From contig CANQXT010000004.1 in assembly GCA_947627915.1 (NCBI GenBank), forward strand, positions 1 to 45,911: 45,911 nucleotides of DNA, read 5' to 3'. Source of the stretch: an uncultured Bacilli bacterium. Its GTDB lineage: Bacteria; Bacillota_I; Bacilli_A; RF39; UBA660. Numbering within the stretch: position 1 is the first letter of the stretch; each line of letters opens with the position of its first letter. A program made the position numbers and the translations under genes. Positions 10,095 to 37,711 of the stretch are shown piece after piece. The notes under the pieces were generated by a model. The model had not been told where the DNA came from. It did no database searches and saw only the letters and a list, made by a program, of their open reading frames with translations.

Positions 10095-10104
10095 ATTATA
10101 CCTT

Positions 10105-10184
10105 AAAAAAAGCACACACAAATAGGGATTGATGTGGCTGCTGTCTTCCAACTCTGACCAGGTTACAATATATTTGTTGTGCGT
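10105..10184 (-). ncRNA. ffs: Small signal recognition particle RNA (4.5S-type)
   Basis: The minus strand contains ACCTGGTCAG, GGAAG and AGCAGCCA in order, the conserved Ffh-binding tip of bacterial SRP RNA. Flanking arms GCACAACAAATA and TATTTGTGTGTGC pair over 12 bp with one bulge, and seven T residues follow the closing stem. Length is about 75-80 nt, the short form lacking an Alu domain; Bacillus has the long form (about 270 nt). Neighbours tadA and dnaX are typical. Confidence 0.93.
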
Positions 10185-10188
10185 AATT

Positions 10189-10217
10189 ATATTAACATAT
10201 CTATATAAATAATTCAA
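10189..10217 (-). promoter_or_regulatory. Promoter for the SRP RNA
   Basis: TTGAAT (-35) and TAATAT (-10) are 17 nt apart on the minus strand, placing the start near 10182, at the first base of the SRP RNA stem. Confidence 0.6.
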
Positions 10218-35830: not shown

Positions 35831-35858
35831 AAATGTTGGTTGTTCCCAACATTTTTTT
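35831..35858 (+). terminator. Terminator after prmC, first half of left cassette
   Basis: AAATGTTGG pairs with CCAACATTT around TTGTTC and is followed by seven T residues. The right cassette has the same hairpin with compensating changes (TTG/CAA, one G-C pair shorter). Confidence 0.9.
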
Positions 35859-35867
35859 AGCGAAAAC

Positions 35868-35894
35868 TTGACACCGGGGGGGGTATTATATAAT
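35868..35894 (+). promoter_or_regulatory. Promoter with a G8 tract in the spacer, left copy
   Basis: Consensus TTGACA and TATAAT are 15 nt apart, and eight of the 15 spacer bases are one run of G. Two more G residues would give the optimal 17 nt. This arrangement resembles the phase-variable porA promoter of Neisseria. Confidence 0.85.
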
Positions 35895-37235: not shown

Positions 37236-37261
37236 GAAAGAGAATAACTCTCTTTCTTTTT
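37236..37261 (+). terminator. Terminator after the glycine-rich gene
   Basis: GAAAGAG pairs with CTCTTTC and is followed by five T residues. An outer pairing AACTTAA/TTAAGTT can extend the stem. Confidence 0.75.
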
Positions 37262-37270
37262 AAGTTAAAG

Positions 37271-37300
37271 TTCGTCAAAATAAGACAAAATATGTCAAAA
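37271..37300 (+). repeat. Three 10-bp tandem repeats
   Basis: TTCGTCAAAA, TAAGACAAAA and TATGTCAAAA in register (consensus NNNGNCAAAA), spaced one helical turn and ending 8 bp before the toxin -35. Operator-like or intrinsically bent DNA. Confidence 0.6.
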
Positions 37301-37308
37301 TTATCCCC

Positions 37309-37337
37309 TTTACAAAAAGGGAATTATGTAATTTAAT
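37309..37337 (+). promoter_or_regulatory. Promoter for the toxin mRNA
   Basis: TTTACA, 17-nt spacer, TTTAAT. The predicted start is near 37344, right at GAAGTGT. An inverted repeat CCCTTT/AAAGGG (37306-37321) overlaps the -35 and may be an operator. Confidence 0.6.
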
Positions 37338-37419
37338 AGTAACTTGAAGTGTTGAACTGGCGCCGCCGAATCAATTTTTTCTCAGGGGGTTTCCTTTTGA
37401 GGGAGGTGGGTGAAGTAAG

Positions 37420-37527
37420 ATGAAAACAAGAAATTTAATAAAAGTATTGCTAGTAATTATTTTTCTACTATTAGTTGTGATATTAGAAAAAGACGCCGTC
37501 CGAATATTTGAATTAATATTCGGATAG
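37420..37527 (+). CDS. Candidate type I toxin, 35-residue hydrophobic peptide
   Basis: Too short for the ORF track. It starts MKTRNLIK, continues with a single membrane helix (about 6-22, rich in Leu, Val and Ile) and ends EKDAVRIFELIFG. GGGAGGTGGG is a strong but distant ribosome-binding site (about 13 nt). Size, membrane helix and long leader fit type I toxins such as TxpA or Fst, but I do not recognise the family. The 3' end lies under a hairpin that terminates a convergent antisense RNA. The leader and 3' region are far richer in G+C than the surroundings, suggesting transfer. Confidence 0.72.
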   Translation: MKTRNLIKVLLVIIFLLLVVILEKDAVRIFELIFG

Positions 37528-37531
37528 CGTC
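37487..37531 (-). terminator. Terminator of the antisense RNA
   Basis: GACGC/GCGTC outer stem and a long TCCGAATATT/AATATTCGGA inner stem, followed by five T residues on the minus strand only. On the plus strand no T tract follows, so the toxin mRNA probably continues to 37610. Confidence 0.8.
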
Positions 37532-37567
37532 AGTCTATAAATAGGCGGCGTGAAATTCACACTTCCT
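37487..37567 (-). ncRNA. Candidate antisense antitoxin RNA
   Basis: A minus-strand promoter at 37573-37601 and a terminator at 37487-37531 define an RNA of about 80 nt. It is fully complementary to the end of the toxin reading frame and the 3' untranslated region, provided the toxin mRNA reads on to the terminator at 37610. The layout matches txpA/RatA and bsrG/SR4, where the duplex is cut by RNase III. Its 5' end (GGAAGTGT...CGCCGCC) copies that of the toxin mRNA. Confidence 0.7.
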
Positions 37568-37572
37568 ACTTT

Positions 37573-37601
37573 AGTATATCTCAAAAATGTTGATTGTACA
37601 A
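37573..37601 (-). promoter_or_regulatory. Promoter for the antisense RNA
   Basis: TTGTAC, 17-nt spacer, TATACT on the minus strand. The -35 lies inside the right-cassette terminator hairpin. Predicted start near 37566. Confidence 0.7.
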
Positions 37602-37610
37602 CATTTTTTT
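37585..37610 (+). terminator. Terminator of the toxin mRNA, first half of right cassette
   Basis: AAATGTTG pairs with CAACATTT around ATTGTA and is followed by T residues. Confidence 0.85.
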
Positions 37611-37619
37611 AACGAAAAC

Positions 37620-37646
37620 TTGACACCGGGGGGGGTATTATATAAT
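37620..37646 (+). promoter_or_regulatory. Promoter with a G8 tract in the spacer, right copy
   Basis: TTGACA and TATAAT, 15 nt apart, with eight G residues in the spacer, identical to the left copy. Confidence 0.85.
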
Positions 37647-37711
37647 TATCTTATAAAATAGAGAGAAGCAAAATAGATAAAAGTTATCAACATAAAAGAA
37701 AGGGTTAAGTA

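Follow-up and report, generated by a model that had tools for sequence, protein, structure and literature searches.

How do the mRNAs of type I toxins escape translation while they are still being transcribed? Outside the cases that depend on nuclease processing the question is open, and it is raised again by a small locus in an uncultured Bacilli bacterium (RF39; UBA660). The window referred to below is the whole stretch of DNA that was analysed, namely the 45,911 nucleotides of contig CANQXT010000004.1 (assembly GCA_947627915.1), and the locus, at 37309-37611, comprises a short toxin-like open reading frame (ORF) and a convergent antisense gene. A preliminary description of this DNA had claimed that the toxin mRNA and the antisense RNA open with the same sequence, and that the toxin mRNA can pair with itself end to end. 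In the current analysis we give about even chances to the reading of this locus as a type I-like toxin-antitoxin unit built around a toxin mRNA that acts as a three-way RNA switch. With slightly less confidence, we propose that the antitoxin RNA may act as a molecular mimic, imitating the toxin mRNA at its 5' end, such that end-to-end pairing turns the mRNA on and occupation of the shared 3' partner turns it off.

Pairing of the two arms in the toxin mRNA

The 5' arm consists of GAAGTGT (37346-37352) and CGCCGCC (37361-37367) separated by 8 nucleotides, and the 3' arm of GGCGGCG (37544-37550) and ACACTTC (37559-37565), again with a gap of 8 nucleotides. Each arm lies just downstream of a promoter-like sequence, and the common opening of the two predicted RNAs is as had been described. 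The arms were also picked up independently by an inverted-repeat listing (repeat I5, 22 nucleotides, 73% complementary). A better pairing register joins GAAGTGT(T)GAA with TTCACACTTC in 10 base pairs with one bulge, and GCGCCGCC with GGCGGCGT. The RNA 37346-37612 is predicted to fold end to end with an energy of -82.6 kcal/mol (z score -6.3) that none of 200 shuffled sequences equalled, which agrees with the pairing claimed earlier. For the minus-strand RNA (37566 to about 37484) the predicted fold has one hairpin at the 5' end and a second, terminator-like one with a U-run behind it (-32.3 kcal/mol, z score -6.55). Judged by promoter position, the predicted starts of both RNAs fall within a few nucleotides of (G)GAAGTGT, as had been proposed. 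The coincidence of the two starts is only approximate, because the distance from the -10 element to GGAA varies from about 6 to 10 nucleotides in the relatives.

The compensatory changes that the preliminary description had suggested looking for are found in the relatives. The seven-pair core CGCCGCC/GGCGGCG occurs in seven fully Watson-Crick versions, with changes on both sides at six of the seven pairs; the 5' arm versions having a fully complementary 3' arm are CGCCGCC, CGTCACC, CATCGCC, CGTCGCC, CGCCGTC, TGTCACC and CGCCGTT. The automatic pair count retains four units that were mis-anchored in the spacer, which lowers its paired fraction. When partners are exchanged among 13 subfamilies, arms pair with their own partners at -29.2 kcal/mol as against -22.4 kcal/mol for swapped ones, about 7 kcal/mol better (p 5e-5), and the same result is obtained from 7 to 60 representatives. 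Single-linkage clustering of the arm swaps gives a p of 0.0002 with nine groups and is uninformative once these have merged to one or two.

The pairing also shows a preference of strand. The mirror-image helix on the minus strand is weaker (-24.1 as against -28.6), with the plus-strand helix better in 58 of 64 units. Differences between arms consist mainly of U/C and G/A changes, oriented so as to give G-U pairs in the plus-strand RNA, that is, in the toxin mRNA; the transitions are wobble-compatible by 71 to 23, or by 27 to 13 when counted by distinct context (p 0.04). On these sequence comparisons the arms are selected to pair, and to do so in the toxin mRNA. Nor are they a chance match: some 76 distinct related units have the arms together with both promoters, ORF and hairpin, and the two arms change in concert.

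Being inverted, multi-copy and co-diverging, the arms could also be taken for terminal inverted repeats of a mobile element, or for repeats kept alike by gene conversion, with any RNA pairing incidental. A preference for G-U on the strand of the toxin mRNA only is not expected from transposon ends, from conversion of DNA repeats or from a shared protein site, and therefore points to RNA pairing. The homology, moreover, does not end at the arms but runs through both promoters beyond them, and the copies within the window's genome share long flanks. No transposase was found, and a search of viral contigs with the DNA pattern of the family gave no matches. Neither of the two outcomes that had been named beforehand as refuting the RNA reading, arms kept without promoters or arms flanked by target-site duplications, appeared in the relatives, both promoters accompanying the arms in the complete units. 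We regard this explanation as highly improbable.

Predicted switch at the Shine-Dalgarno sequence

In the fold of the full-length mRNA the Shine-Dalgarno (SD) sequence lies outside the end-to-end helix. Across 60 units, predicted folding without the 3' arm leaves less of the SD unpaired, 0.16 as against 0.33 at full length (p 1.5e-7 over units, 7e-4 over clusters), since the 5' arm, having lost its partner, then binds the SD. With the 3' arm absent, pairing of the SD to the first 32 nucleotides has a mean of 0.64 as compared with 0.29 for shuffled arms, and is higher in 18 of 18 clusters. The comparison of folds with and without antisense RNA, proposed in the preliminary description, gives a similar picture. 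When the window mRNA is cofolded with its own antisense RNA, the unpaired fraction of the SD falls from 0.34 to 0.09 and its pairing with the 5' arm rises from 0.04 to 0.52; a duplex forms along the whole antisense length and the 5'-3' pairing is abolished. In these models the end-to-end helix thus looks like the permissive state, and binding of the antisense RNA seems to turn the mRNA off. The hok analogy drawn earlier, with 5'-3' pairing keeping the mRNA silent, is not supported. From the folds and cofolds we derive the proposed sign of the switch, in which free complete mRNA would be on and nascent or antisense-bound mRNA off.

The three states would be as follows. As long as the toxin mRNA is being synthesised, and at any other time when it has no accessible 3' arm, its 5' end would serve as an anti-SD sequence; CCGCC (in relatives UCACC, CAUCGCC and so on) would pair with GGUGG/GGUGA of the SD, beside the leader hairpin, and block translation. 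In the complete free mRNA the 3' arm would bind the 5' arm through about 17 base pairs, end to end; this would draw the 5' arm away from the SD, giving the translatable form, and also hide both ends of the mRNA. The antisense RNA would then pair along its entire length, covering 3' arm, variable spacer and hairpin, oust the 5' arm so that it returns to the SD, and leave the duplex exposed to RNase III. The membrane peptide of 34-39 residues would be made only when antisense RNA is short. As the antisense RNA takes its opening nucleotides from the 3' arm, it begins with the sequence of the mRNA's 5' arm, and in this respect the mimicry suggested earlier holds. The parts, their conservation and the co-variation of the helix on the mRNA strand are read from sequence; the anti-SD state and the switch come from modelled folds; and transcription, toxicity, decay by RNase III and spacer specificity are steps that we infer.

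The same gross architecture, with a strong co-varying 5'-3' interaction and both ends hidden, would also be expected of a locked mRNA of the hok or AapA kind. In such a scheme the end-to-end helix would be the stable, untranslated and antisense-resistant form, trimming of the 3' end would activate it, and the antisense RNA would target the remainder. The aapA mRNA is indeed silenced by long-distance 5'-3' pairing (PMC6733600). In the present units, however, the SD is not in the end-to-end helix, the folds predict a closed and not an opened SD once the 3' arm has been removed, and the antisense RNA pairs exactly with the 3' segment that trimming would remove. A locked mRNA is therefore considered unlikely, at about one chance in a few.

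Somewhat less likely again is a helix that serves stability only, keeping RNase J/RppH off the 5' end and exonucleases off the 3' end, with an antisense RNA that simply forms a duplex for RNase III, as is the case in TxpA/RatA. The 3'-overlapping layout is that of TxpA/RatA, in which RNase III is essential (PMC6562991), and a hairpin of its own stands at the 5' end of the antisense RNA. Such a role would nevertheless leave unexplained why the fit of the released 5' arm to the SD surpasses that of shuffled arms in every cluster.

Several observations count against the proposed switch. The swap test of the anti-SD fit against the SD is significant over all units but not at deeper levels (p 0.07 with 13 subfamilies, 0.53 with seven); as deep co-variation with the SD is not clear, the fit may partly mean that C-rich 5' arms always suit SD sequences. 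The open form is only relatively open, since the SD is mostly paired even in the full-length fold. The folds are equilibrium folds, which ignore kinetics, Mg, ribosomes and proteins. The terminator of the toxin mRNA is present in the copies of the window's genome and in G034 and is not found in the other aligned relatives. Finally, the peptide has no Pfam, NCBIfam or PHROG family above the curated cut-off or at a convincing E-value.

Organisation of the unit

The features of the window unit are listed in Table 1. The sequence features of type I systems are present, comprising a short hydrophobic ORF under coding constraint and an antisense gene with its own promoter and terminator that is complementary to the toxin mRNA. 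An AGGGGG motif on the loop side of the leader hairpin is conserved, the pattern [CT][ACGT][AG]GGG[GA] preceding the ORF in 76 units. The A-run at 37487-37491, which is the U-run of the antisense RNA, is invariant in the relatives in its place before the hairpin. The antisense terminator hairpin is conserved with compensatory changes (for example GACGC/GCGTC to GGCGT/ACGCC). A TATACT-type -10 element of the antisense gene occurs in 109 of 120 units, its conserved promoter having the general form TTG...-TATACT, and the toxin promoter is likewise conserved.

Table 1. Predicted features of the toxin-antitoxin-like unit in the window
Feature	Position	Strand	Basis
Toxin promoter	TTTACA 37309-37314, 17 nucleotides, TTTAAT 37332-37337	+	Consensus of 60 related units: -35 TTTACA, -10 TTTAAT
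5' arm and toxin mRNA start, GAAGTGT(T)GAA + CGCCGCC; predicted anti-SD	37346-37367	+	Co-variation with 3' arm, folds
Leader hairpin UUUUUUCUCAGGGG / UCCUUUUGAGGGAG, right side entering the SD	37376-37406	+	Fold
SD GGAGGTGGG; GGTGG within it complements CCGCC of the 5' arm	37402-37410	+	Sequence, folds
Toxin-like ORF, 35 residues, MKTRNLIKVLLVIIFLLLVVILEKDAVRIFELIFG; stop codon within hairpin 37492-37531	37420-37527	+	Intact in 58 of 60 units, codon-position differences
Predicted antisense RNA, about 82 nucleotides: 5' GGAAGTGTGAATTTCACGCCGCC ... terminator hairpin, U-run	~37485-37566	-	Fold, covariance-model matches
Hairpin GACGCCGTCCGAATATT/AATATTCGGATAGCGTC: antisense terminator, and C-terminal codons and stop of the ORF	37492-37531	both	Compensatory changes
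Variable spacer from hairpin to 3' arm; probable specificity segment	37532-37543	both	Copy divergence in the window's genome
3' arm in the 3' untranslated region of the toxin mRNA (GGCGGCG ... TTCACACTTC); its minus strand gives the first nucleotides of the antisense RNA	37544-37565	+	Sequence, co-variation
Antisense promoter	TTGTAC 37601-37596, 17 nucleotides, TATACT 37578-37573	-	Promoter listing (its -35 one base off)
Intrinsic terminator of the toxin mRNA (AAATGTTG...CAACATTTTTTT), overlapping the antisense -35	37583-37611	+	Hairpin in fold

Toxin-like peptide

The ORF is intact in 58 of 60 units and mostly encodes 34-39 residues. Differences at the three codon positions amount to 32/18/49%, in keeping with an ORF under coding constraint. 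The peptide has a basic N-terminus, a single hydrophobic stretch and a KD[AV] tail that is encoded by the terminator hairpin. DUF6903, the best Pfam match, was rejected as the toxin family, its E-value of 0.011 being under the cut-off and obtained with one member only.

A mok-like leader ORF (AGGGGG, 7 nucleotides, [ATG]TG, ending at the ATGA of the toxin) is seen in the window unit at 37395-37422, where it has a TTG start 7 nucleotides past AGGGGG, 8 codons and a TGA that overlaps the toxin ATG. It is found in several relatives and is in frame in C16, G023 and L065, with no coupling in L161 and L148. As the frame is not kept in other relatives, such a leader ORF is not claimed.

Divergence of the spacer

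The segment between hairpin and 3' arm differs by sequence or by length in every copy of the window's genome, with both of its neighbours near constant. Among six such copies the spacer shows 0.34 differences per site, the hairpin 0.07, and the 3' arm together with the promoter 0.01. Two units, C4 and C35, agree in every codon ahead of the hairpin and differ at 7 of 40 positions of the hairpin and 5 of 13 of the spacer, a pattern as expected if antisense specificity diversifies. Private spacers in several full units of one genome are likewise as expected for separate toxin-antitoxin pairs. From this divergence the spacer is probably the specificity segment.

Distribution of the family

A covariance model of the antisense half has matches in 23 of the 38 genomes of the window's genus. 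In a family-level search with one genome per genus, the model matched 1 of 145 genomes, the window's own, and no other sampled genus. In all, 120 distinct antisense-half sequences were gathered, about 76 of them with a recognisable toxin leader. The window's genome encodes five near-complete copies, one copy of the antisense half only (at C8:9894-10017), and further diverged members. Tandem arrays are present in several genomes (for example G023:C7, G002:C31, G007:C4 and G000:C11). A DNA-pattern search identified 30 contig stretches from metagenome-assembled genomes titled Bacilli, comprising 'Lapin' (rabbit) samples and one goat-rectum genome.

About 18 copies, counted by eye, are antisense-only and retain the antisense promoter, spacer, hairpin and terminator, with toxin promoter and ORF absent. 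They include G000:C8:9894-10017 (in L006 and L011, with promoter and ORF deleted), L046, L141, L155, L166, L178, L174 and L203. These copies are possibly trans-acting antitoxins or relics.

Comparison with known systems

The arrangement in which the antisense RNA (about 37485-37566) covers the end of the ORF and the 3' untranslated region is that of the Gram-positive type I systems treated in PMC4147584 and PMC6562991, and is shared with BsrG/SR4 and TxpA/RatA, with no homology of toxin sequence. In BsrG/SR4, a type I system of Bacillus subtilis SPbeta, the antisense RNA is likewise convergent with the mRNA of a small membrane toxin and overlaps the 3' end of that mRNA. SR4 reportedly binds at a distance from the SD, extends the stem that masks the SD of bsrG and promotes decay (PMC4147584, PMC6562991), and this antisense-induced masking (PMC4147584) resembles the switch-off proposed here. 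The unit differs in its end-to-end helix and in an antisense RNA that copies the 5' end, neither of which was found stated for BsrG/SR4 in these two papers.

The par/Fst system of pAD1 (RNA I/RNA II) similarly has convergent RNAs, a tiny hydrophobic toxin and repeats (DRa/DRb) for RNA-RNA contact (PMC4147584). The repeats of par are direct and give complementary RNAs, whereas those described here are inverted and give RNAs with the same 5' ends; the shared terminator of par is also absent.

A long-distance 5'-3' interaction of the toxin mRNA is common to hok/Sok, aapA/IsoA and the present units, and that of hok is said to be supported by covariation in work cited in PMC6733600. In hok/Sok and aapA/IsoA the interaction silences and 3' processing activates (PMC6733600), whereas the sign predicted here is the opposite. 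In timP/TimR the full-length mRNA is active without cleavage through mutually exclusive folds, termed 'structural processing', and the small RNA undoes the active fold (PMC11228461), much as in the present proposal. The timP element is a local pseudoknot of the 5' untranslated region in enterobacteria (PMC11228461), in contrast to the end-to-end helix.

Rfam covariance models gave nothing at or above the gathering score in 37250-37660, the only hits being sub-threshold chance ones. Because there is no match to curated protein families or to Rfam, and the repeats are inverted and not direct as in par/Fst, these units appear to form a new family, confined to the genus and type I-like but of variant mechanism, with a predicted toxin role. 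No description of an antitoxin RNA that copies the 5' end of its toxin mRNA was found in the literature searched, the coverage of which was partial.

Other features of the window

The repeat TTGACACCGGGGGGGGTATTATATAAT, which resembles a promoter and has a G-run separating -35 from -10, occurs at 37620-37646 and 35831-35888, and at about 35-40 places in the window's genome. It precedes surface-protein-like genes, in the window one for a glycine-rich protein with an ALK_LTK_GRD domain and one for a laminin-G-like protein. In 34 distinct copies the length of the G-run ranges from 5 to 10 and is 8 in most, the spacer being mostly 15-16. From their sequences these repeats are a candidate set of phase-variable promoters. 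The antisense-only or diverged copies L155, L178 and L181 directly adjoin the G-run promoter of an oppositely oriented gene. The window also encodes a bacterial small signal recognition particle RNA (Rfam RF00169) at 10097-10193 on the minus strand.

Implications

If the antitoxin RNA does mimic the 5' end of its target, translation of the toxin would need an mRNA that is complete and free of antisense RNA, and would need no nuclease processing. As a design, this would be an antisense RNA regulating through imitation of the 5' end of its target. Comparison within one genus would then expose a processing-free switch, with natural covariation sets for each helix. The units described here would add to uncultured gut Bacilli a large unannotated toxin-antitoxin-like family, with tandem arrays, private spacers and antisense-only copies.
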